Shown here piece by piece: positions 1 to 14,235 of a stretch of 49,599 nt of DNA. The translations under genes were made by a program, and so were the position numbers. A model generated the notes under the pieces. The model was not told where the DNA came from. It ran no database searches and saw only the letters and a list, made by a program, of their open reading frames with translations. Source of the stretch: Fidelibacterota bacterium (GTDB lineage Bacteria > Fidelibacterota > UBA8477 > JABMPR01); contig JABMQQ010000181.1 of NCBI GenBank assembly GCA_013202495.1, forward strand, positions 1 through 49,599, given 5' to 3'. Every line of letters starts with the position of its first letter. Position 1 is the stretch's first letter.

Positions 1-248
1 GGTAAATCAGCAGGATTACGTTCGCTGATCATTTTTACGGTGTCATTTGCATTATGCAATACATCACCTTCTAAATGAACGGTTGCGTCCCCAAAACCAC
101 CCATGACAGTATCATATTTAAGCAGATAAACCAGAGCTTCACGCTCGAACAGATCATTGATGGCGACGACGTTGATGTCTTTACGTTTATCTAAAATACG
201 AAATACGGAACGACCGATACGACCGAATCCATTAATTGCTACTCTCAT
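1..248 (-). CDS. gap: Glyceraldehyde-3-phosphate dehydrogenase, N-terminal part (cut by window edge)
   Basis: Translation from the ATG at 248 gives 82 residues that run off the window edge. They begin MRVAINGFGRIGRSVFR, the NAD-binding Rossmann start of class I GAPDH, followed by the typical VVAINDL strand and a LLKYDTVMGGF segment. The enzyme oxidises glyceraldehyde-3-phosphate with NAD(P) and phosphate in glycolysis, or runs in reverse in gluconeogenesis. The catalytic Cys and His lie beyond the edge and cannot be checked. The start codon overlaps the stop of the upstream GAPDH paralogue (ATGA, 4 bp), so the two are probably translationally coupled. The family call is firm; whether it is the NAD or NADP type cannot be told. 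Confidence 0.93.
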   Translation of the reverse strand, partial: MRVAINGFGRIGRSVFRILDKRKDINVVAINDLFEREALVYLLKYDTVMGGFGDATVHLEGDVLHNANDTVKMISERNPADL

Positions 249-1261
249 GCAGCACCTCCTTCTACCCCGAGCTTACCATAAGCAAGTGCTAGATCGACTA
301 GACGTCCTGCCTGGCCAAGACTGTTATCATACCAACTCAGAGTCTTCACCATTCGTATACTTGATTTCATAGTACCCTTGGTATCAAAAAGCAAGGAGTG
401 GGCATTGCCTATTACATCACTTGATACGATTGGATCTTCTGTAATTTCAACATATCCAGCCAATGATTCTGCGGCTTTGCGCATGGCATCATTAACCTCT
501 TCAGCTGTGGTCTCACCTTTGGTAAGGACACAGGTCAGATCGAGAAGTGATCCCATTGGTACAGGAACATTCAATGCTGATCCTTCAATTTTACCTTTAA
601 AGCGAGGTAAAATATGTTCCATCCAATAGGGGCTGATGTTGACATTTGGAATGATGTTTTCAGCAGCTGAACGACTACGTCTGAAATCTGATGAAGCAGT
701 GTCACGCAATGGCTGATCACTGGTGTAGGCATGGATTGTAGTCATCATAGCATATTCGATACCAAATGCCTTGTCCAGAATATCCAGCATCAAAGCCAGG
801 GCATTTGTAGTAGCAGATGCGGCAGATACAAGTTTGTCGCTTGCTTTAATTGTTTCATCATTTACACCCATGACGATCACACGATCAATATCATCCTGTG
901 GGAGCGAACCGAGAATAACACGTTTGGCTCCTGAATCCAGGTGAGCCTGCATGCTTTCACGTGTGCGGTATTTATGGGTTGAGTCAATTACGATATCAAC
1001 ATCAAAAGCGTCCCATGGAACATCTTTTGGTGCTACACCATGGATGAGACGAGCCTTCTGATCGCCGACAACAAGATAATTCCCCTCAAGCTGTGCGTCT
1101 ACTGGATCTCTTCCATCGTTTTTTAGCAAATAGTGGAGGATATCGGAGCGACCAATATCACTAATTGCTACAACTTCCATTTCAGGCTGGTTTAAGCTTA
1201 AGCGATAGACATCTCTACCGATCTCGCCAAATCCCATCAGCCCGACTCTAATCTTACTCAT
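245..1261 (-). CDS. GAPDH paralogue lacking the catalytic cysteine (probable pseudoenzyme)
   Basis: The 338-residue protein has GAPDH length and fold signatures: Rossmann GFGEIGR near residue 11, a TTIHAYTSDQ segment carrying the catalytic-base histidine (His177), SAAENIIP near 198 and SWYDN near the C-terminus. The active-site loop, normally S-C-T-T-N, reads SAASATTNAL (residues 146-155), so the nucleophilic Cys is Ala150 (codon at 812-814, GCT). The phosphate-binding Arg of the usual RVPTP segment is also replaced (LNVPVP, Asn231). Ordinary GAPDH catalysis should therefore be impossible, while NAD binding and tetramer contacts look intact. A good SD (GGAGG, 8 nt before ATG 1261) supports the start. 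It overlaps gap by 4 bp and follows a TrmB-type regulator. A regulatory or hetero-oligomeric role is inferred. The frame is intact, so it is not a decayed gene. Confidence 0.88.
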   Translation of the reverse strand: MSKIRVGLMGFGEIGRDVYRLSLNQPEMEVVAISDIGRSDILHYLLKNDGRDPVDAQLEGNYLVVGDQKARLIHGVAPKDVPWDAFDVDIVIDSTHKYRTRESMQAHLDSGAKRVILGSLPQDDIDRVIVMGVNDETIKASDKLVSAASATTNALALMLDILDKAFGIEYAMMTTIHAYTSDQPLRDTASSDFRRSRSAAENIIPNVNISPYWMEHILPRFKGKIEGSALNVPVPMGSLLDLTCVLTKGETTAEEVNDAMRKAAESLAGYVEITEDPIVSSDVIGNAHSLLFDTKGTMKSSIRMVKTLSWYDNSLGQAGRLVDLALAYGKLGVEGGAA

Positions 1262-1331
1262 AGAACGTGCCTCCGTTTCGATCCCTATTCAAGAGGGAGC
1301 GATTGTTAAAGGTTATATATATTTTCAATGA

Positions 1332-2165
1332 TCAATTCTTCTTCAGGTGTATAATTGCTTCGTGATCTTCACTTAAAAGATCATCCAAATTGTGTATCTC
1401 TCCGTGGAGCATATCCGTGATTACAGGATTCATATCAAGCTCGTAACGCTGCCCAAAAAGAGTGAGATCCAGGATGATATAATTTAGAGCTATTGCAACA
1501 ATGGCCGAATTCCTGGTCCAGGCAACTTTATTGGTAGGTAGCATTTCCACGCCACCCAGGAGGGAAGAATCATGATCAACCACCAATAAAATTTTGCTAC
1601 TCCACACATCCTCCAGACGACGACTATCCAGGTTGTAAGCGAACACTGTCCCAACATCAGTGGGAAGATCACAGAAGGAAAAAATGACAATATTGACACC
1701 GCGTTTTTCAGCTGCGATGAGATCGCTGTGGAGCTTATTGTACTCAGTGAGCCAGATTGACAGATAAACAGATTTTTCAGCATTTTTGATCATGTGTCTT
1801 GCACGATCAATCATACTGTCATATCCACGAATATTCCAGAGATCACCTACTTCCAGGTCAGTGTTAACATTTTTTAGTGAATCTTTAAGTGTATCCAAAT
1901 TGGTAGTGAAGTTGTTCTCCAAAACATCGAATAGGTGATCCGGGGGTAGCGGGATATATCGAGTAGGGTTTGAATCCACACAACTCACCATGCCTGTACT
2001 TTCCAGGCGTTTTAGGATCTCATAAATCGCCGACCGCGGAATACCCGACTTGCCGCTAATCTCATATCCAGTAGCTGGATTATTCTGTAAAAGGCTGAGA
2101 TAAGTTTTAGCTTCGTTGGATGTAAATCCGAATGACTTGAGGGCAGGAAGTAGCTTTTCATTCAT
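1332..2165 (-). CDS. TrmB-family sugar-responsive transcriptional regulator
   Basis: The 277-residue protein opens with a winged helix-turn-helix (about residues 1-75: GFTSNEAKTYLSLL, then SGIPRSAIYEILKRLESTGM) typical of TrmB. The C-terminal part (from about residue 105) resembles the TrmB effector domain of the PLD-like fold. TrmB proteins bind sugars and control transport, glycolytic or gluconeogenic genes, best known in archaea. The gene lies 70 bp upstream of the GAPDH paralogue on the same strand, so the glyceraldehyde-phosphate pair is its most likely target. That gap contains an AT-rich stretch that could hold a promoter. Divergent to it starts an RND permease gene. The family call is strong; effector and target are inferred. 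Confidence 0.8.
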   Translation of the reverse strand: MNEKLLPALKSFGFTSNEAKTYLSLLQNNPATGYEISGKSGIPRSAIYEILKRLESTGMVSCVDSNPTRYIPLPPDHLFDVLENNFTTNLDTLKDSLKNVNTDLEVGDLWNIRGYDSMIDRARHMIKNAEKSVYLSIWLTEYNKLHSDLIAAEKRGVNIVIFSFCDLPTDVGTVFAYNLDSRRLEDVWSSKILLVVDHDSSLLGGVEMLPTNKVAWTRNSAIVAIALNYIILDLTLFGQRYELDMNPVITDMLHGEIHNLDDLLSEDHEAIIHLKKN

Positions 2166-2313
2166 TAGCGTGTCTCACTTCTTAGTTACGCTTAATATAT
2201 CCTCCAATTAAGGCGTGCATAGCACTTTTTAAATGCATAAAATAATTTCTTCAAAAAAGCTGAAAGGTTCGTTTCCCTTTCATCAGACTTAGCAACACAA
2301 TACATTGCCGGCC

Positions 2314-4587
2314 ATGAAAAAATTCACCACCCTCATCACACACTATCCCAAGACCATCATATTTATAAATCTTCTAGTTATCACACTTTTATCTCTTCCT
2401 ATATATAGAATCCACATCAACCCTGATCTGCAGGCTTTAATTCCAGCTAATGATCCAGATGTCCTCCGCATGGAAGAACTTGAAGTAGAATTTGGCGGAT
2501 TAGATGTCATTTTGATCAGCTACCATGCTGATGATGTATTTGCTGGAGAAGGTCTTGAGATGATTGATAATCTGACCTACGATCTGGAAGCCCTACCCCA
2601 AATTGATCATATCATCAGTCTGACCAATTACGAAGCTATCCTCAGCGACGATGAATCCATGACGGTGGATAAATTCATACAAGAAATTCCAGGGAGTCAA
2701 ACTGAGAGTGATTCACTGGCCCAAAGAGCCATTGCAGATCCTATGCTGGGTCGACTAATTGTTTCTGATGATCGTGAGTATACCGCCATCATCATCTATT
2801 CGCATCCAGATGCTGATGAAGTCACTACAGTGGCTGCTATACAGACTGTTCTACTTCCTTATCAAAAAGAGAATCATGATCTGAGATTGGGTGGCATGCC
2901 GGTCATTAGAGCTCAGATATCAGATGATATTGCTCACGACACCCGCACATTCATTCCTGCCGGCATGGTGCTGATAGCTTTTCTGCTGTATTTCAGTTTC
3001 CGTTCCCGCCGTGGAGTGGCTCTGCCCCTCCTGGTTGTTTTATTATCGATTATGGGCACCTTGGGACTCATGGCCTGGCTTGGACTCATGTTGTCTGTGA
3101 TTTCCAGTATTATGCCCATCATGCTTATTGCAATAGCCAGTGCCTACGGTATTCATATCATTACTCGTTATTTTGAAGATTGTGCAGAGTTGCCCGATGA
3201 TACAGACAATAAAGAAATTGTAACCAGTGTCATCGAGCATATGATGCGGCCTCTGTTTCTGGCTGGTCTTACCACAGTGATTGGGTTTTTATCTTTGCTC
3301 TCCCACATTTTGCCAGCCTCCAGAGAGGTGGGCGTATTGACTGCCTTTGGTGTCGTGCTTGCTTTTGGCATATCAATTACCTTTATCCCTGCAGTGTTGG
3401 TCCTGACCAAAAAACCAAGTTCAGAGAGACAAAATAAAAATACAGCAAATAGATTACTCTCAAGGATATTGGTAAGCATGGGACGACTGGTTTTCCATCA
3501 TCGTAATATCATATTCGCAACATTTGCTTTGATTACCATTGTCGCAGCCATCGGCATTCCTAAAGTCGAGTTAGATAGTAATCCCCTCAATTATTATGGC
3601 CCAGAATCCAACGTCCGAGTAATCAACAATATCATAGAAGATCACTTTGGTGGAAGTACGACCATGTCGGTTGTGGTTGAGGGAGACATAAAATCCCCTG
3701 ATGTGTTGAATCAGGTGGATCAAATTCAAAAATTTCTTGAAGGTCGCGAGGGAGTCGGCTACACGCTTGCCATAACAGATTTTGTAAAACTCATGAATCA
3801 GTCAATGAATGGTGGAGACCCCGCCTATTATACAATTCCAGATTCCCGTCAACTGGTATCTCAATACCTGTTATTGTACTCCTGGGAATCCAGCGATGGA
3901 TATTTGGATTCTTATGTGGATTATGACTATCGGACTGCTCAAATTGTGATTCGTCTTAATACCATGGATGTGTATTACATGGTGGATCTCCAGGAAGAAC
4001 TAAATCAATTCCTCAACAAGAACATCCACGTAGACAATCAGCCCAAGAGTGAGGGTTATGCTGTGCTGCTGGGGAACTTGATGCCCATGATGGTGAAAGG
4101 ACAAATACGGAGTCTCGTACTATCGGTAATTTTTGCAGCCCTGGTGACGGGTCTTGTTTTTAGATCATTGTCAGCGGCTCTTATCAGTGCTATGCCCCTG
4201 GCATTTGCCATCGCAGGTGTCTTCGGTTTGATGGGGTTCTTGGGGATTTATTTGAATACTGCGACATCCATGCTTAGCTCAATTATGATTGGTATTGGGA
4301 TTGATTATACGATTCACTTTTTGTTCCGCTTCAGAACAGAAATCCGCAAAGGGCTCAGCGATGAAGAGGCCATTGTTAAAACTTTAAGTACCACCGGCCA
4401 GGGTATCATTATTAATGGATTTTCAGTCATGATGGGATTTGCAGTGTGCATGCTATCCACCTTTATCCCCATATATTTCTTTGGCTGGCTGATCTCAGTC
4501 TCCATTTTCATGTGTTTAATTGCCGCTTTGACTTTGCTGCCGCTGGTGCTGATTCTTACCCGTCCAAAATTCATATTCAATAGATAA
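2314..4587 (+). CDS. RND superfamily (MMPL/HAE3-type) permease 1
   Basis: This permease of about 757 residues has the duplicated RND layout: one N-terminal TM helix, a periplasmic domain (about 35-210), five TM helices (about 215-370), then the same plan again with the second periplasmic domain at about 420-590 and TM helices to the end. TM10 carries GIGIDYTIHF (Asp near residue 664), the proton-relay position of MMPL proteins. The equivalent TM4 site reads ASAYGIH (near 278) and has no Asp. I chose ATG 2314 (MKKFTTL) over TTG 2305, which would add only three residues; no clear SD precedes either. HAE3/MMPL permeases move lipids or hydrophobic compounds. It starts a plus-strand cluster with a second permease, a LolA-like protein and an outer-membrane barrel, which suggests lipid traffic. 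Confidence 0.85.
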   Translation: MKKFTTLITHYPKTIIFINLLVITLLSLPIYRIHINPDLQALIPANDPDVLRMEELEVEFGGLDVILISYHADDVFAGEGLEMIDNLTYDLEALPQIDHIISLTNYEAILSDDESMTVDKFIQEIPGSQTESDSLAQRAIADPMLGRLIVSDDREYTAIIIYSHPDADEVTTVAAIQTVLLPYQKENHDLRLGGMPVIRAQISDDIAHDTRTFIPAGMVLIAFLLYFSFRSRRGVALPLLVVLLSIMGTLGLMAWLGLMLSVISSIMPIMLIAIASAYGIHIITRYFEDCAELPDDTDNKEIVTSVIEHMMRPLFLAGLTTVIGFLSLLSHILPASREVGVLTAFGVVLAFGISITFIPAVLVLTKKPSSERQNKNTANRLLSRILVSMGRLVFHHRNIIFATFALITIVAAIGIPKVELDSNPLNYYGPESNVRVINNIIEDHFGGSTTMSVVVEGDIKSPDVLNQVDQIQKFLEGREGVGYTLAITDFVKLMNQSMNGGDPAYYTIPDSRQLVSQYLLLYSWESSDGYLDSYVDYDYRTAQIVIRLNTMDVYYMVDLQEELNQFLNKNIHVDNQPKSEGYAVLLGNLMPMMVKGQIRSLVLSVIFAALVTGLVFRSLSAALISAMPLAFAIAGVFGLMGFLGIYLNTATSMLSSIMIGIGIDYTIHFLFRFRTEIRKGLSDEEAIVKTLSTTGQGIIINGFSVMMGFAVCMLSTFIPIYFFGWLISVSIFMCLIAALTLLPLVLILTRPKFIFNR

Positions 4588-4623
4588 ACTCTGTAAACTT
4601 ACTTGCATAGAAAATGATTTTAC

Positions 4624-4701
4624 GTCACCCCGAGCGGAGTCGAGGGGTACAGCCTCTTTTGTAGGCAATTATTATTATCCCTCGACTCCGCTCGGGATGA
4701 C
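4624..4701. repeat. Dispersed inverted-repeat element, copy 1
   Basis: Two 23-nt arms (4624-4646 and 4679-4701) are inverted complements of each other with one mismatch, separated by 32 nt. Their shared core is CCGAGCGGAGTCGAGGG. The same arm sequence recurs in inverted pairs at 34420-34538. The element sits between the first permease gene and the TetR gene. It has no poly-T tail, so it is not a plain intrinsic terminator. It looks like a small intergenic palindromic repeat of the kind scattered through many FCB-group genomes. Confidence 0.85.
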
Positions 4702-4768
4702 ACTCGTATGATTATATCTTCAGAAATTCTCCTTGCAAGTATTCCATCATTAGCTACATTGGAAACGC

Positions 4769-5398
4769 ATGATACAAAATTCGTTTCCATCGCCCCCCGA
4801 CACAAGTACCCCAGAAGGTCCTATTTTGGAGCATGGTCTAAACCTCATTTTCCGAGATGGTGTTAAGGGATTCACTGTAGAGACTTTGGCCAAAGACTTG
4901 GCCATGAGCAAAAAGACTATCTATAAATTCTTTCCCTCAAAGGAAGTCCTCCTGGGAAGAATTTTCCAATACATTTCCATCATCATAGCAACCAAATTTC
5001 AAAGTATTCTTAAACTGGATATCAATCCCCTCGACAAATTTGAAACGGCTATTGATGAAATTGTGAAAACAATTAATCGAGTATCTATCTCCAGAGTTGG
5101 CGAGCTAAAAGTGCGATACCCACATATTTGGAGGGAGATTGAAGAATTCAGGTTGGCCAGGCGTGAAGATTTTCTAACCATTTTCAAGGAGGCTCAAGAT
5201 CAGGGATACGTGAGAGAAAAAGTTGATTTAGAACTAGCCTCCATCATTTTTATGCAAACTGTAAACGATATATTTCAACCAGAATTTTTTCTAAAACACG
5301 ACATTGGGGTCAAAGAAACCATGCTCACATACCGAGAGTTTTTTTTACGAGGGATCATCACTCAAAAAGGTCTAAAACACATAGAGGAAAAAATATGA
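4769..5398 (+). CDS. TetR/AcrR-family transcriptional regulator
   Basis: The 209-residue protein has the TetR N-terminal DNA-binding domain at about residues 18-65: a FTVETLAKDLAMSKKTIYKF helix-turn-helix followed by SKEVLL. The rest is a helical ligand-binding domain with no assignable ligand. The ATG at 4769 has no obvious SD but leaves the usual short arm before the DNA-binding domain. Its stop overlaps the start of permease 2 by 4 bp (ATGA), so regulator and permease are co-transcribed and probably coupled. The usual model is repression of its own operon, relieved by the transported compound. That model is inference. Confidence 0.9.
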   Translation: MIQNSFPSPPDTSTPEGPILEHGLNLIFRDGVKGFTVETLAKDLAMSKKTIYKFFPSKEVLLGRIFQYISIIIATKFQSILKLDINPLDKFETAIDEIVKTINRVSISRVGELKVRYPHIWREIEEFRLARREDFLTIFKEAQDQGYVREKVDLELASIIFMQTVNDIFQPEFFLKHDIGVKETMLTYREFFLRGIITQKGLKHIEEKI

Positions 5399-7695
5399 AA
5401 CAGTGGTTTATCAATCAATCAGTGGATCACCCCAAGCGCAGTATAATTGTCACCATTCTTATTACCCTACTCATGGGCTCAGGGATCCAGCATTTTGTTG
5501 TAGAAGATGACTTCCTGAAAATGTTACCTCAGGATATTGAATCCATGGTAGCACTGAATGAACTCAAGGATGAATTTGGTAGCACTGACCTCATGTTTCT
5601 GGGATTCGGTAAGCGTGGTGTTGACGTTCTGAACACTGAGAATCTGGCAATGCTTTGGGATTTATCCCATGCGCTGGAAGATGTCGATCAGGTCGATGAG
5701 GTCATGTGTATCTCAACCTCTGACAAAATGGAGAGTATTGACGGATTTCTAGAAGTTTCAGCATTACAGGAATACCGTGATTTAGATGAAGAAGAAATTG
5801 CCACCTTACGAAGCTATCTGAACGATAATTCAAAAATCAGAACGAGAAATCTGGGAGAGAATGGTGACTACTTTAATGTGATCATTCGCCCTATCGTCGG
5901 TGTAAAAGGCGATGTCTTAGTGAGTGATATGGAAAAAGTTGTCGCCAAATATCTGACTGAATATGATGTTCACTGGGGAGGACAAGCCTATCTCACTGGT
6001 GCTTTGCCTGTGATGATCCGAAATGATGTCGTGGGTCTCATGAGAATCGGATTGATTGGCATGCTCCTCATCTTGCTTTTTAGCTTAAGAAATGTTTCTG
6101 CAGTAGGTAGCATCTTGGCTACTATCATTCTATCCATGGCATTTATGATGGGGTTCAATGGGTGGATGATCTATCTGACAGAATCAGATAAATTCATGTT
6201 TGGAGTCCTCAATACATCCATGCCCATCATTTTATTGACCATCGCCAACTCCTATGGTGTGCATGTCATTACCAAATTTTTTAGAAAAATGCGAACCAAT
6301 AAGGACCCTCGCGCGGCAGTAGAGGCCAGTCTCAATTCTCTAGTATTACCCATCTTCCTCACAGCATTGACAACGGTTGCGGCTTTTTTATGTATGGTCT
6401 TTGCACCACTGGAACCCCTCATTGGATATGGTTTTTCCATTTCTGCAGGAATCTTATGGGCCTGGATACTATCGACAGTTTTTCTACCCTCCATTCTCGT
6501 TTTGAAAAAATGGAACCCCGATTCTGCAGCAGTCTCTCACCCCAGTCATTTTGAAAGATTTGTTATCGCATTTGGAGAGCAGGTCATCAAACGCCCCAAG
6601 ACTGTTTTAATCGGGGGCGCGGTGGTGGTCATTATCGGAATTGCCGGCTTCTTGAAACTCAATATTGAAGTCAACATGAAAGCATTTTTCAAACCTGGTA
6701 ATCCTATAAGGGAGAGTCTGGAATTCATGGACAATGAAATGACAGGGACCATGGATCTCCAACTACTGATAAATGCCGACCTGCGTTCCCCAGAGGTATT
6801 AAATCAGATGACCAGAATCCAGGAATTCATGGAAGAATATGAGGCTGTAACCCTCTCCATTTCTATTGCGGATGTGATTAAACAAATGCACCGGATGATC
6901 AATGATGATGATCCTGCTTTTGAGACCATTCCTGACACCCGTGAGAAGGTGAACAATTTGTTTACCATGTACTCCATGTCAGGAGATCCAGACGACTTTA
7001 GTTCATTGGTTGATTATGATTACGAAAAAGGTCTGGCTACTTCTATGATGCGGTCCATTTCTACATCAGAAATTGTGGTTTTGGTTGAAGAAATCGAAAC
7101 CTTCCTCCAGCAGGACGATTACAAGGATCTGAACATTACAATCACAGGCCTACTCATCGTGTTCAGGGATCTTGTTGCTTTGATCATTCGTAGCTCATTT
7201 ATCAGTATTTTCGCATCAATCATCATCATCGCTCTGATTGCTGCCTACTTCTTCAAACATTGGCTATGGGGTGTACTGGCGGTGGTACCCCTGAGCTCGG
7301 CTGTGATATTGAACTTTGGTCTTATGGGAATATTTGGTGTTGATCTGAACCACGTGACAGCCCTCCTGTCAGCTATCATCATTGGTGTCGGTGTTGATTT
7401 TGCCATCCATTACATCAGTCAATTTCGAAACCACCTACATACCCATGGATTAGACGGTAATTTGAGTCGGGAAACTATGAGGGATGTGGGCTTCCCCGTT
7501 ATTCTGGATGCAGCTTCCAACATGGCATTTGGTGCCTTATTGTTCTCGGTATTCATACCAATGATGCATATGGGTGGTTTGATGGTCTTTGCCATGGTTT
7601 CAACATCCACTGCTACTCTGACACTTTTAGCAATACTACTTGAGCTGAACAAAAAACGTCTGGCCCGCATTGAAGGTATTGCGGTCCCTGAATAA
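5395..7695 (+). CDS. RND superfamily (MMPL/HAE3-type) permease 2
   Basis: This 766-residue permease has the same duplicated architecture as permease 1: TM1, a periplasmic loop (about 35-205), five TM helices to about 370, TM7 near 400, a second loop, then five TM helices ending near 755. The TM10 motif GVGVDFAIHY holds the relay Asp (near residue 668), while TM4 has IANSYGVHVI (near 286), again without Asp. The two permeases share layout and loop motifs such as DxVxxLxxxM and DYDY, so they are paralogues and may pair. The gene overlaps the TetR regulator by 4 bp and is followed 26 bp later by a LolA-like protein gene with a good SD. Export of a lipid or other hydrophobic substrate is likely; the substrate is unknown. 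Confidence 0.85.
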   Translation: MKQWFINQSVDHPKRSIIVTILITLLMGSGIQHFVVEDDFLKMLPQDIESMVALNELKDEFGSTDLMFLGFGKRGVDVLNTENLAMLWDLSHALEDVDQVDEVMCISTSDKMESIDGFLEVSALQEYRDLDEEEIATLRSYLNDNSKIRTRNLGENGDYFNVIIRPIVGVKGDVLVSDMEKVVAKYLTEYDVHWGGQAYLTGALPVMIRNDVVGLMRIGLIGMLLILLFSLRNVSAVGSILATIILSMAFMMGFNGWMIYLTESDKFMFGVLNTSMPIILLTIANSYGVHVITKFFRKMRTNKDPRAAVEASLNSLVLPIFLTALTTVAAFLCMVFAPLEPLIGYGFSISAGILWAWILSTVFLPSILVLKKWNPDSAAVSHPSHFERFVIAFGEQVIKRPKTVLIGGAVVVIIGIAGFLKLNIEVNMKAFFKPGNPIRESLEFMDNEMTGTMDLQLLINADLRSPEVLNQMTRIQEFMEEYEAVTLSISIADVIKQMHRMINDDDPAFETIPDTREKVNNLFTMYSMSGDPDDFSSLVDYDYEKGLATSMMRSISTSEIVVLVEEIETFLQQDDYKDLNITITGLLIVFRDLVALIIRSSFISIFASIIIIALIAAYFFKHWLWGVLAVVPLSSAVILNFGLMGIFGVDLNHVTALLSAIIIGVGVDFAIHYISQFRNHLHTHGLDGNLSRETMRDVGFPVILDAASNMAFGALLFSVFIPMMHMGGLMVFAMVSTSTATLTLLAILLELNKKRLARIEGIAVPE

Positions 7696-7721
7696 ACTTT
7701 AATCAAAAGAAGGATTTTGAC

Positions 7722-8486
7722 ATGAAAACCATTAGCCCTCACATTTTTACGGCCCTGCTCCTCATGCTCCCCATGATGATATTTGCCGAAACCGGTTATG
7801 AGTTGGCGAAGGCCATGGAAGACAAAACTGCACCCTCAGATATGAAATCGAATATGACCATGACTTTAACCAATAAGCAGGGTAAAACCAGAGAATCTAC
7901 TATTCGCTCCATCACAGCTGATGACAATCGGAAACAAATCATCTGGTTTCTGGCCCCAGCCGATGACAAGGGCGTTGCCTTCCTAAAAATTGAACATGAG
8001 CAAAAAGATGATGAAATGCGTCTCTGGCTGCCAGCGTTTAAAAAGGTCCGACGTATCAGCTCTAAGAAAAAGGCCGATTCCTTTATGGGCTCTGATCTGA
8101 GTTATGAAGATATGACTTCAAGAGAATTGGAAGAATATACCTATGAAATCCTAGGTGAAAAAGTCGTCGATGGAATTGATTGCCATATTCTGGAAAGCAC
8201 TCCCAAAGCGGGTGTTACGCGCACATATAAAAGATTTGTCACTTATGTAAGTAAGGCGGATTTGGTTTCCATTCTGGATGAAGCCTATGATACTCGAGAT
8301 AAACTGCTAAAACGTCGTGTAATGAAATATCGTAAGGATAAAGGCTATGACCTCCCTACTGAGATTTATGTAGAGAATGTCCAGAAAGGTTCCAATACAC
8401 GCCTTGTATTTAGTAGCCAGGAAGTAGATACCGGTGTAAAGGCAGATCTCTTTCAAGAAAAGAATTTAAAACGGATGCCCAAATAA
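7722..8486 (+). CDS. LolA-like periplasmic outer-membrane lipoprotein-sorting protein
   Basis: The 254-residue protein has a signal peptide (about residues 1-22, ending MIFAE). The mature part matches the 'outer membrane lipoprotein-sorting protein' family, a LolA-like half-barrel. Its hallmark block is present: RLWLPAFKKVRRI followed by DSFMGSDLSYEDM (about residues 104-137). SD GAAGGA precedes ATG 7722. In other bacteria this family is regularly encoded next to MMPL permeases and a DUF1302-type barrel, as here. The likely job is to carry a lipid or lipoprotein across the periplasm between permease and outer membrane. That step is inference from fold and context. It is not the housekeeping LolA, which has a different sequence signature. 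Confidence 0.82.
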   Translation: MKTISPHIFTALLLMLPMMIFAETGYELAKAMEDKTAPSDMKSNMTMTLTNKQGKTRESTIRSITADDNRKQIIWFLAPADDKGVAFLKIEHEQKDDEMRLWLPAFKKVRRISSKKKADSFMGSDLSYEDMTSRELEEYTYEILGEKVVDGIDCHILESTPKAGVTRTYKRFVTYVSKADLVSILDEAYDTRDKLLKRRVMKYRKDKGYDLPTEIYVENVQKGSNTRLVFSSQEVDTGVKADLFQEKNLKRMPK

Positions 8487-8525
8487 CTATGCCTCCTTTT
8501 ATTGAAGGACTCTAAGGACCCTGCT

Positions 8526-9851
8526 ATGAAAAAACTGTATCCTATTTTAATAATATTGGGACTTATACCCCTTTCCACCCTTGCTCAGCTCAATATTTCG
8601 GGAGAATTAACTCCCTCTGCTATGCTTCGTTTGAGTGATGGCACTAATATTGACTTACCCTTCCGACCAGGGAATCTTTCCATCGATTATGCCATGGGGG
8701 ATTTCGAATTCAATACCAATACGGCTATCGAAACACGCTGGGAAAATGCTGAATTCTCCTCGGATATGTTCCAATTCAGAGAGGCTTATCTCACCTGGTA
8801 CCCCAGTTTTGGCGAGATCAAACTGGGGAAAATGATTCACGCCTGGGGTGCAGCTGATGGCAACAATCCAACGGACAATCTTTCACCCTATGATTTTTAC
8901 TATATGTTTCTCGCAGGAACCGATAGAAAGATTGGGACCCTCAGTGCCAGCGGGTTAGTGTATGCCGGTGACTTCCAGTTCGAATTGGTAATTCTACCTG
9001 AATTTGTTGAAAATCGTATTCCTTACAATGAACCTGACTTTCCCATTAAAATAGAACTGCCACCAGATGTTGAGATCACAGAGCCTAAAGAGGCTATTGA
9101 AACAGGTGCAAAGGTCAAATATGCCATGGGTATGGGTGATGTTTCCCTATCCCATTTTCAGGGGTATGATCGTTCTATGAGTTCGATAGGAGTTCGAATA
9201 GGTGAGGGAACAGCAGGCACAGCGATTACCATTCATCCACAGCTTGGATACCGTAAAACAAGTATGTATGGTGCAGATTTAGTATTCTTTCCCGGAAATT
9301 GGACAATTCGAGGTGAATTCGCTTACTTCCAGACCAAAACACCCGAGTTCAACCTAGATGCCACCCTCCTGGTCACCGAAGCGAGCTATCTCCAGTCTGT
9401 CGTGCAGCTTGAATATGCTTTTTCAAATGGTTTACAGCTCATGGGGCAGTTTATAAGCACTGATTACGGTGATATTAGCAATGAAATCACACCGGATCTA
9501 ATCTTGGCAACGCTCCCCGATGAGCTCCAACATGGCTTGCTCCAGCAAATGAACAGCATGGAATTCCAAGCGGGAATGGGAACGCCTTTCGCCATGATAG
9601 CTGAAAGATTAGTTATGGTATCCTCAATGTTCGAAACTTTGGACAACACCCTGGAACTTAGTGGCATGCTTATGGTCAACCTCCTCGAAACCGGCTACAT
9701 GGCTAGAATAGGATCCAGCTATTCCATAGTTGAAGGTTTAAGTCTGGATGCTGGAGTGAGTTACTTCATTGGAGGCGATGAAGCGGGCAATAAATTCAAG
9801 AATATGGAAGATTTTTCAAATCTTAACCTTGGACTCAGCTATAGTTTTTAG
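8526..9851 (+). CDS. Outer-membrane beta-barrel protein of the permease cluster (DUF1302-like)
   Basis: The ATG at 8526 has an AAGGA SD 7 nt upstream and gives a clean signal peptide (MKKLYPILIILGLIPLSTLA), so I prefer it to the upstream TTG at 8502. The mature protein of about 420 residues is rich in alternating aromatic/polar strands and ends ...LGLSYSF, a C-terminal Phe typical of outer-membrane barrels. A block FREAYLTWYP followed by LGKMIHAWGAADG and D-N-L-S-P-Y-D resembles the conserved core of DUF1302 outer-membrane proteins, which commonly sit beside RND permeases and LolA-like proteins. At 441 residues it is shorter than most DUF1302 members, so the family link is tentative. It probably forms the outer-membrane end of the cluster's transport path. 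Confidence 0.7.
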   Translation: MKKLYPILIILGLIPLSTLAQLNISGELTPSAMLRLSDGTNIDLPFRPGNLSIDYAMGDFEFNTNTAIETRWENAEFSSDMFQFREAYLTWYPSFGEIKLGKMIHAWGAADGNNPTDNLSPYDFYYMFLAGTDRKIGTLSASGLVYAGDFQFELVILPEFVENRIPYNEPDFPIKIELPPDVEITEPKEAIETGAKVKYAMGMGDVSLSHFQGYDRSMSSIGVRIGEGTAGTAITIHPQLGYRKTSMYGADLVFFPGNWTIRGEFAYFQTKTPEFNLDATLLVTEASYLQSVVQLEYAFSNGLQLMGQFISTDYGDISNEITPDLILATLPDELQHGLLQQMNSMEFQAGMGTPFAMIAERLVMVSSMFETLDNTLELSGMLMVNLLETGYMARIGSSYSIVEGLSLDAGVSYFIGGDEAGNKFKNMEDFSNLNLGLSYSF

Positions 9852-11985: not shown

Positions 11986-14235
11986 CTACTGTTCAAGTAT
12001 CAGTTCGACGAGAATAACCAGGTCCCTTACATCAATTAAGCTATCCTGATTGGTGTCAGCCAGTTCTGCCAGGTCGGCAGCTAGCTCAAGGTTTGATATG
12101 ATTGATTCCAGAAGAAAGACCGCATCAGATACGTTGATTTCGCCGTCCTGAGTAACATCACCCAGGATGAAGCCGGAACCCCATCCTAATACAGCAAAGT
12201 TGTCAACTTGAAATCCATCACCCTCAAAATATGTATCGCTTATCAATTCAAAGGCCAGCATCAGAGAAGATGACTCGCTGAAATTGACTAGCGAGAGTTG
12301 TTCTGCTATCCATACTTGCGTCCCATGATACCCAGGTTCTCCAAGTGGCTGAACCGAACTACCATTTCCAATATCCGTATACTGACCACCCAGGGCAACC
12401 CAGTTTGCACCACCATCATCTGAGGCCAGTACCTGACAAAAGTCCCAGTTGAACTCGATATCCCAACTGGCGTCAAATCGAAGGATTGGATTGCTATACC
12501 CGCGTATATCTAGAGGTGTGTTCAGCACAACTGTGGAAACCGAACTTGGTTCGTAGTAACCAGCAGGAGAATCTGTCATATACTGCTCGCCATCGGGTCC
12601 TGTATCCAGTCCCCAGGTCCCAGAACTCCACATTTGAGTTCCAGCCTCAAAATCGTCAAAAAATATGGTGTCAGGAATACCAACTATCCACTGGAGTGTA
12701 TCCACTTGCGTTTCATATCCGGACATTTCTATGCTCAGTACAAGCTGAGCCACTTCACCATATCGAGAATTAATCTCAAAGCTTAAATCTCCGGTTCCGT
12801 AATCATGAAAATCCTGTGATGCCAGACCTGAGACATCAATTGAACTAAGTGATGGGGTAATGCTACTGTCTGGCGAGTATAAATAAAGGGTGGCAGCTGT
12901 GTTCTCCGAACCTAGCCCCTTGTTCATGACGATAAGCTCACACCCCAACATATCACCAGATTCCAGAGGACCATCTGAGTTAAACTCAAAGTTTTCTACT
13001 TCTATCCAACTCCCCGCACAACCGGCAAGATGAATATTCATATCGATATTGTCCTCAGCCATTTCAAATATCAATTCCGTAGGTGGCCAAAATGCTCCGT
13101 CTGATCCAGCGCCGACTTCTGGTGTGAAATTTATAATTCCCAATTCACCATACATGTAATCAACGGCATCCCCGTTCACCGTATAGCCTACGGTCTCGGT
13201 TCCAGTTCCATACAGATAATCATTTTCTCCCACAAGATCTGGACCCATTTGGGCATATATCTCGTTATCAGGCACGGGTAGCTCAACCGATTCATCATAA
13301 CCGAAGGGCTTTATGAGTAAATTGCCGTAGCTGTGATAGTTGAATATGGTCTTAAAATCATGGGCAAGCACAAAATTACTAACCACTTGTGTTTCTGGTT
13401 CAGAGAAGGGACCAGTTCCTCGGTATGTACCACCGCATGGGTCAGCGCTGGAGCCCTCATCATCAAAGCCCCAATGGAAACCCCAATTTCTATTCAGGTC
13501 GACACCTGGTGAACTGGTACATCCTGGATGTCGATTCTTGCGGTGCAGTCCTCCACCATTTGGATCAGTGAGTTGATTGTAGACATAACCATCTGGATTG
13601 ATTACAGGGACGAACCAAATTTCTCTCTCATTGACTAAATAGGTCATGGTTGGATTCTGGTTGTATCCCTCAGCAAGAGACCAGGCAAAATGCATCAATG
13701 TCATCATGGCAGCCGGCTCACGAGCATGGATGAGAGAATTGTAAAGGACCTGGGGATCACCGTCCGGTAAACCCTGAGCATCAGATATCTTAAAAGCCCA
13801 GATATCCCGTCCTTCATAGCTAAGCCCGATGCTGTGCTTAACGGAGACAATTTCCGGGTAACCCGCATGCAGCGAATCCATACTGGTCACAATCTCATCA
13901 AAAGTTAGATACCCCCCCATACTCCCGTAACCAAGTTCTCGTGACACACCCTGACTTAACCTTGATGCATAATAGGCACTCAGATCAAGGATCAAATCTT
14001 CTGAAGCAAATCCCAGACCTTCAACATTTAACTTTTCGGTCTGATTAACAATAGCATCGACATAAACACCAGGTCGGACATCGAACCCTTCTGGGTCTAG
14101 ACCCAATACCAGCAATTCAGTTATGATCTCATTGGTATCATCTGACCAGATTCTGATTTTATCGTATGTTGCTTGAGCCATCCCGATCTGGAATGAAAAA
14201 AGGAGGACAAGCAGAGAGGTAAATTTTTTATTCAT
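11986..14235 (-). CDS. Secreted M14 zinc carboxypeptidase with C-terminal dockerin
   Basis: The 749-residue protein has a signal peptide (about 1-20), a pro-region, then an M14 metallocarboxypeptidase domain (about 105-405). The zinc ligands are visible: His170 and Glu173 in IHAREP, and His301 in NYHSYG. The catalytic Glu373 lies in FTPEVGAG, and VDLNRNW is the usual substrate-binding Asn-Arg block. Beta-sandwich domains follow. The last 60 residues form a type I dockerin: two calcium loops, D-V-T-Q-D-G-E-I-N-V-S-D and D-T-N-Q-D-S-L-I-D-V-R-D, each followed by a helix. It lacks the T9SS sorting tail seen on other exported proteins here, so the dockerin probably anchors it to a cohesin partner. 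It lies 19 nt after the M1 peptidase gene, in one operon. Confidence 0.9.
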   Translation of the reverse strand: MNKKFTSLLVLLFSFQIGMAQATYDKIRIWSDDTNEIITELLVLGLDPEGFDVRPGVYVDAIVNQTEKLNVEGLGFASEDLILDLSAYYASRLSQGVSRELGYGSMGGYLTFDEIVTSMDSLHAGYPEIVSVKHSIGLSYEGRDIWAFKISDAQGLPDGDPQVLYNSLIHAREPAAMMTLMHFAWSLAEGYNQNPTMTYLVNEREIWFVPVINPDGYVYNQLTDPNGGGLHRKNRHPGCTSSPGVDLNRNWGFHWGFDDEGSSADPCGGTYRGTGPFSEPETQVVSNFVLAHDFKTIFNYHSYGNLLIKPFGYDESVELPVPDNEIYAQMGPDLVGENDYLYGTGTETVGYTVNGDAVDYMYGELGIINFTPEVGAGSDGAFWPPTELIFEMAEDNIDMNIHLAGCAGSWIEVENFEFNSDGPLESGDMLGCELIVMNKGLGSENTAATLYLYSPDSSITPSLSSIDVSGLASQDFHDYGTGDLSFEINSRYGEVAQLVLSIEMSGYETQVDTLQWIVGIPDTIFFDDFEAGTQMWSSGTWGLDTGPDGEQYMTDSPAGYYEPSSVSTVVLNTPLDIRGYSNPILRFDASWDIEFNWDFCQVLASDDGGANWVALGGQYTDIGNGSSVQPLGEPGYHGTQVWIAEQLSLVNFSESSSLMLAFELISDTYFEGDGFQVDNFAVLGWGSGFILGDVTQDGEINVSDAVFLLESIISNLELAADLAELADTNQDSLIDVRDLVILVELILEQ

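Follow-up and report, generated by a model that had tools for sequence, protein, structure and literature searches.

The window analysed here, a stretch of 49,599 nucleotides from an uncultured marine bacterium, encodes a GAPDH-fold protein that lacks the catalytic Cys150 and the phosphate-binding Arg231 and is joined to a gap gene immediately downstream. The same two-gene pair is found across about ten bacterial phyla, which suggests that the disabled copy, called the ghost in what follows, probably belongs with the working GAPDH as an inbuilt partner, regulatory or structural.

The initial annotation had read positions 245-1261 as an intact paralogue of GAPDH length, and the reading frame is indeed real, although the strand, left unstated there, is the minus strand (Table 1). 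The Pfam domains Gp_dh_N (9e-20) and Gp_dh_C (1.4e-44) span the protein from end to end, and it is about 42% identical to Bacillus GAPDH. The residues that had been singled out can all be read in the window: the catalytic loop, SNASCTTNC in GAPDH, has become SAASATTNA, with alanine in place of Cys150; the region of residue 231, MAFRVPTP in GAPDH, has become SALNVPVP, with asparagine in place of Arg231; and His177 is kept in the motif HAYTSDQ. The stretch PTTTGAAR, which belongs to the Pi site of GAPDH, reads PNVNISPY in the ghost, and the C-terminus, ...LALAYGKLGVEGGAA, is without a Cys-bearing tail. The strong Shine-Dalgarno sequence and the four-nucleotide overlap (ATGA) between the ghost stop and the gap start were likewise found as described.

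Table 1. The ghost-gap locus and the adjoining regulator gene, by position in the window.
Feature	Position	Strand	Remarks
Canonical type I gap, 5' part	1..248	minus	ATG at 248-246; contig edge cuts the gene
Ghost, GAPDH-fold putative pseudo-subunit (Cys150 to Ala, Arg231 to Asn)	245..1261	minus	338 codons, intact; ATG at 1261-1259, stop TGA at 247-245
Shine-Dalgarno sequence of gap, AAGGAGG	255..261	minus	within the last ghost codons
Codon of residue 231 (Asn), site of the substrate-phosphate-binding Arg	569..571	minus (complement)	family-defining change
Codon of residue 150, GCT (Ala), site of the catalytic Cys	812..814	minus (complement)	
Shine-Dalgarno sequence of the ghost, GGAGG	1270..1274	minus	8 nt before the ATG
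TrmB-family (sugar-sensing) transcription regulator	1332..2165	minus	directly upstream of the ghost

The downstream gene had been called a normal gap gene. Its start is present, but only the first 82 codons lie in the window, where the catalytic residues are unreadable. The intact gap of a relative (L002, 500-1501) scores 439.8 bits against a cut-off of 367.2 for TIGR01534, the NCBIfam type I GAPDH equivalog. A second gap fragment is present in the same assembly on contig C255 (G000:C255; L031 3-992). It is 91% identical to window positions 1-248, with 21 mismatches in 236 nt, its contig starts close to the ghost-gap junction, and the catalytic residues are present in it. This fragment probably comes from a strain variant or a co-binned relative, and the source assembly may mix two strains. 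End fragments similar to it occur in two other genomes (G015:C33 and G018:C18).

Within the genus the ghost is under strong purifying selection. It is present in 16 same-genus genomes, that of the window included, at 84-100% identity, and gap follows it in all 16 wherever the contig continues. By the NG86 method its dN/dS within the genus is 0.040, with a range of 0.023-0.054, close to the 0.031 of gap and the 0.039 of the TrmB gene. Codon 150 appears as GCT, GCC, GCA or GCG across the species of the genus and specifies alanine every time. The initial annotation had named close relatives with Cys150, or a dN/dS near 1, as signs that would speak against it; all close relatives carry Ala150 and Asn231, and the ratio is about 0.04. 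Its central claim of a maintained, co-translated dead paralogue is thus supported by conservation, by the low dN/dS and by the constant adjacency to gap.

That the ghost always stands next to gap is borne out by the wider family. A canonical gap follows immediately, on the strand of the ghost, after 150 of the 152 distinct full-length ghosts, and the two without a visible partner are both at contig edges; most of these loci were fetched by ghost matches, the partner not being a criterion, and some actinobacterial loci were fetched via the partner. Every one of the 150 partners has Cys150 and Arg231, and gap upstream of the ghost was seen in none of the 152. The gap start is at most 10 nt from the ghost stop in 142 of the 150 pairs, with an exact 4-nt overlap in 84. 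In several genomes no GAPDH homologue was found other than the ghost and its partner, and carriers among the Bacteroidota and gammaproteobacteria have additional gap genes. A conserved wider operon was considered and rejected: the neighbours vary between phyla, and the constant unit is the ghost-gap pair alone.

The reach of the family was assessed by profile (A1) searches of genomes, and it comprises the Neomarinimicrobiota and nine further phyla, as named by record titles, which can be wrong for metagenome bins. Profile matches of at least 400 bits were obtained in 119 of 245 Neomarinimicrobiota genomes. In the order to which Parahaliea belongs, 15 of the 146 genomes sampled have the ghost, and Parahaliea aestuarii S2-26, a named strain, carries it; it also occurs in a minority of Acidobacteriota. 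Of 148 genomes sampled from an Acidimicrobiia group that includes Actinomarina, several dozen gave adjacent double matches. The Bacteroidia sample gave one carrier in 198, the seed genome itself, and several more Bacteroidota MAGs matched elsewhere. By record title, ghosts are also present in Planctomycetota, Myxococcota, Krumholzibacteriota, Eiseniibacteriota and Latescibacterota. The idea of a plasmid-borne pair was rejected, the best plasmid matches listed being ordinary gap genes alone, at most 43% identical.

The pattern of residues kept and lost bears on what the ghost may do. In GAPDH structures the Ps site, for the substrate phosphate, is formed by Arg195, Arg231 and Thr179, and the Pi site, for a second phosphate, by Ser148, Thr208 and the backbone of 208-210 (PMC9287727). 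The window ghost has asparagine at 231 in the Ps site and is without the Thr208-Gly209-Ala210 of the Pi site. Given the loss of the nucleophile, of Arg231 and of the Pi-site Gly209, GAPDH chemistry is not expected of this protein, and we regard it as presumably non-catalytic for the GAPDH reaction. Across the family, residue 231 is the sole column at which ghosts and partners are each conserved but for different amino acids (Arg in 100% of partners; Asn in 92% of ghosts, Thr in 5%, also Cys and Asp), the lack of Arg231 having itself served as the class criterion for ghosts. Cys or Asp at 231 was read in L270 and L273 (Acidobacteriota) and in L282-L286; the last five also have Phe150 and Arg for His177 and are the most degenerate ghosts. 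The residues for dinucleotide binding are retained (G10 98%, G12 99%, G15 92%, R16 99%), as are the adenine-ribose acid at position 35 (D 93%, E 6%), T95 (96%), S149 (99%), T151 (93%), H177 (94%), R194, R197 and N202 of the S-loop, D187 and D282. Eroded positions include N6 (Met in 76%), N313 (73%), E314 and R195 (70%). The NAD pocket thus keeps its adenosine half and the S-loop its core; both phosphate sites and the nucleophile are eroded.

Among the three options raised by the initial annotation, namely a regulatory subunit in mixed tetramers, an NAD(H) or metabolite sensor, and a new reaction without covalent catalysis, we favour a combination of the first two. With moderate confidence we propose for the ghost the role of a non-catalytic subunit that binds NAD(H) or adenine nucleotides and regulates or stabilises a mixed GAPDH oligomer formed with its downstream twin; the physical association, its stoichiometry, the ligand and the direction of the effect are what we infer. 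Translational coupling would let the two products arise in near-equal amounts at one place, and they would join, by way of the conserved GAPDH interfaces, in one mixed oligomer, of two plus two subunits for instance. The ghost would respond to NAD(H) or adenine nucleotides through the adenosine half of its NAD pocket and would tune the active subunit, much as HisZ and the non-catalytic subunits of NAD-isocitrate dehydrogenase tune the enzymes to which they belong. The fixed, coupled pairing, the single old origin (see below), the dN/dS of 0.040 and the fact that the pair is often the sole GAPDH all agree with this proposal, as does the conservation of the adenosine half and of the interface columns. 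With the P, R and Q interface ranges described for a bacterial GAPDH (PMC5119734) mapped approximately, by offset, onto the ghosts, conservation is 0.53 in these columns versus 0.41 elsewhere, and 0.62 in the S-loop. The gene context fits as well: in a same-genus relative (L032) the order is TrmB, ghost, gap, GH57 glucanotransferase and carbohydrate phosphorylase, and in this genus the pair probably belongs to a TrmB-controlled sugar or glycogen-breakdown unit. Elsewhere the setting of the pair, where recognisable, is often glycolytic, with PFK 3' of it in L095 and PGK in L143. However, a ghost homotetramer would equally predict interface conservation, and operon pairing by itself can mean shared regulation. 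The contact between ghost and gap is itself deduced: mutual information between ghost and partner is enriched at interface columns (25% versus 9%), but the enrichment persists when partners are swapped among relatives, indicating phylogeny rather than contact, and covariation was therefore dropped as evidence. The conserved His177 and Ser149 also leave room for another chemistry or ligand.

One alternative is that the ghost acts as a free-standing sensor or moonlighting homo-oligomer, binding NAD(H) or a phosphorylated metabolite, signalling to other targets, the TrmB regulator or RNA for instance, and sharing the operon with gap for co-expression only. The conserved adenosine half and tetramer core would suit this role, and so would the TrmB gene that adjoins the ghost in this genus. 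However, this adjacency is narrow: outside the genus it is limited to a genome of the same family and to one other family of Neomarinimicrobiota, and it is gap alone that is kept across ten phyla, in fixed order and mostly overlapping. We therefore consider a free-standing sensor rather unlikely. Elsewhere the setting of the pair, where recognisable, is often glycolytic, with PFK 3' of it in L095 and PGK in L143.

Beyond the TrmB gene, the plus strand of the window at 2305-9851 encodes two MMPL/RND-type transporters around a 209-aa ORF, then a LolA_like protein and another ORF. The 209-aa ORF gave no Pfam match at 1e-8 and is TetR-like by eye, and no Pfam match was found for the last ORF. Together they resemble an envelope lipid/efflux operon that is transcribed away from the TrmB gene. 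A secreted M14-carboxypeptidase-like protein is encoded on the minus strand at 11986-14235, and its C-terminus (GDVTQDGEINVSDAVFLLESII...) looks, by eye only, like a dockerin-type repeat.

A second alternative is a new reaction that dispenses with Cys150 and Arg231, such as that of a dehydrogenase or isomerase with an unphosphorylated substrate, the gene being kept beside gap through a shared pathway. The intact Rossmann domain would fit, as would the frequent His177 and Ser149 and the combination of Cys150 with Asn231 in some basal ghosts. However, residue 150 is highly variable in the family (Ser, Ala, Asn, Cys, Pro, Gly, Val, Phe or Ile), His177 is replaced by Arg or Lys in some lineages (Arg in five Acidobacteriota ghosts), Asn313 and Asn6 vary, and so does position 209, where Gly is not among the listed commonest residues. 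Asn231 and His177 aside, no replacement catalytic set is conserved. Since the site residues degenerate differently by lineage, we regard a conserved new reaction as quite unlikely. The known subfamilies were rejected as well: the ghost scores 238 against 539 and 236.5 against 530.6 for the D-erythrose-4-phosphate dehydrogenase models (NF010058/TIGR01532), and it is under the cut-offs for the ArsJ-associated GAPDH and the other NCBIfam GAPDH subfamilies. It also falls short of the type I equivalog TIGR01534, with 294.6 against 367.2, a model that passes the partner and fails most ghosts tested.

The ghost might also be an assembly or stability factor that, being translated first, templates the co-translational dimerisation of GAPDH or protects it, with no later regulation. 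The AF2 model of the ghost (pLDDT 89, pTM 0.88) has the GAPDH subunit fold, and its best PDB matches are all GAPDH, 1gd1 with a TM of 0.90. The S-loop (184-201) is of low confidence in the monomer models of both the ghost and the active partner, which, with the upstream position of the ghost in 150 of 150 mostly overlapping pairs, would be in keeping with help in assembly. The low confidence was rejected as a sign of partner dependence, because the active partner, run as a matched control, gave the identical picture and the effect is thus not ghost-specific. Moreover, a pure assembly role leaves the retained adenosine half of the NAD site unexplained, and typical GAPDHs need no help to assemble, so that this explanation seems very unlikely. 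Finally, a recent pseudogene, decay, or a sequencing or assembly artefact, as might be suspected from the contig edge that ends the window inside the pair and from the second, 91%-identical gap fragment in the assembly, is practically negligible, being ruled out by intact copies in 15 further same-genus genomes, a dN/dS of 0.04, the use of all four Ala codons and a family that extends over ten phyla.

The ghosts are an ancient, monophyletic family of GAPDH paralogues. In a tree built with columns 150 and 231 removed, they form one side of a branch with an SH-aLRT support of 100. The same groups recur in both subtrees, that of the ghosts and that of the partners, a pattern to be expected if the two genes descend and move between genomes as one unit. 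Cys150 is still present in 10 of 93 representative ghosts, or 11% of the family when weighted; all ten are basal, about 44% identical, and without Arg231. The basal position of these ghosts indicates that Arg231 was lost first and the nucleophile later. The presence of Cys150 changes five times on the best rooted ghost tree, with at least two changes forced by starred branches. Thus, Cys150 was lost after Arg231, probably several times over, and the family hallmark is the loss of Arg231 rather than that of Cys150. A different GAPDH-like protein, encoded at 3563-4567 of L044 (G023:C7, Neomarinimicrobiota family f3) in a genome without the ghost-gap pair, has Gly for the catalytic Cys (NASGTTN) and keeps Arg231, which may mark a second, independent disappearance of the nucleophile. 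The residues were read in the G023 copy alone; similar second matches exist in G029, G034 and G038, which likewise lack the pair. The family f7 genomes G027, G045, G051 and others (0.9-1.0 Mb, 96-98% complete) gave no match to type I GAPDH, and these small Neomarinimicrobiota may lack the GAPDH step of glycolysis or use a different enzyme for it.

Compared with type I phosphorylating GAPDH (gapA/gap; TIGR01534), the ghost is alike in length, fold, Rossmann motif, His177 and S-loop core, and its mean identity to its own partner is 41%, but it is without Cys150, Arg231 and Gly209, all of which type I GAPDH has. GapB of chloroplasts is an active subunit of green-lineage origin with a CP12-like C-terminal extension. 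Like GapA and GapB, where one subunit adds regulation, ghost and gap are two homologous genes; unlike GapB, the ghost lacks the catalytic residues and such an extension, which was not found in the window ghost. The same residue has been changed in engineered GAPDH mutants (C149S 1nq5; C150A 7c5j; C150A+H177A 7c5m), which keep the GAPDH fold and are in some cases NAD-bound; those are laboratory products, whereas the ghost is natural, conserved and marked by an additional family-wide change of Arg231. Regulatory subunits of NAD-isocitrate dehydrogenase, HisZ of HisG/HisZ and trypanosomatid prozymes are all pseudoenzyme subunits paired with an active paralogue. With these the ghost shares an old duplication, one dead partner and joint maintenance, in its case as an operon, and it shows both the strict genomic partnership with the active paralogue and the loss of catalytic residues under purifying selection that would characterise a regulatory subunit. 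In contrast, those systems belong to other enzyme families and have a demonstrated complex and allostery, which for the ghost-gap pair are predicted. Pseudoenzyme subunits beside active paralogues are therefore already known, and so are mixed GAPDH tetramers in plants, the chloroplast A2B2 enzyme of spinach (2PKQ) being an example (PMC3728087). A bacterial GAPDH pseudo-subunit was not described in the literature searched, in which subscription journals were poorly covered, and a conserved dead GAPDH beside an active one in bacteria may tentatively be taken as new.

Few enzymes have been studied as thoroughly as GAPDH, and its bacterial form is usually regarded as a homotetramer. If a non-catalytic subunit is indeed what the ghost provides, glycolytic GAPDH in many bacteria might be a hetero-oligomer of catalytic and dead subunits in which the dead site serves as an allosteric sensor of adenine nucleotides or NAD(H), a generalisation that we offer only as a possibility. 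Many ghosts pass as a second GAPDH by Pfam alone, and flux models of these lineages may therefore count an inactive protein as an enzyme. Since the named strain P. aestuarii has a ghost, the idea is testable, and the ghosts offer a natural evolutionary series for the origin of a pseudoenzyme. A dead paralogue co-translated with a GAPDH that is often the only one of the cell suggests an overlooked control of central metabolism, and bacterial GAPDH would then resemble NAD-isocitrate dehydrogenase as a regulated enzyme of two kinds of subunit.
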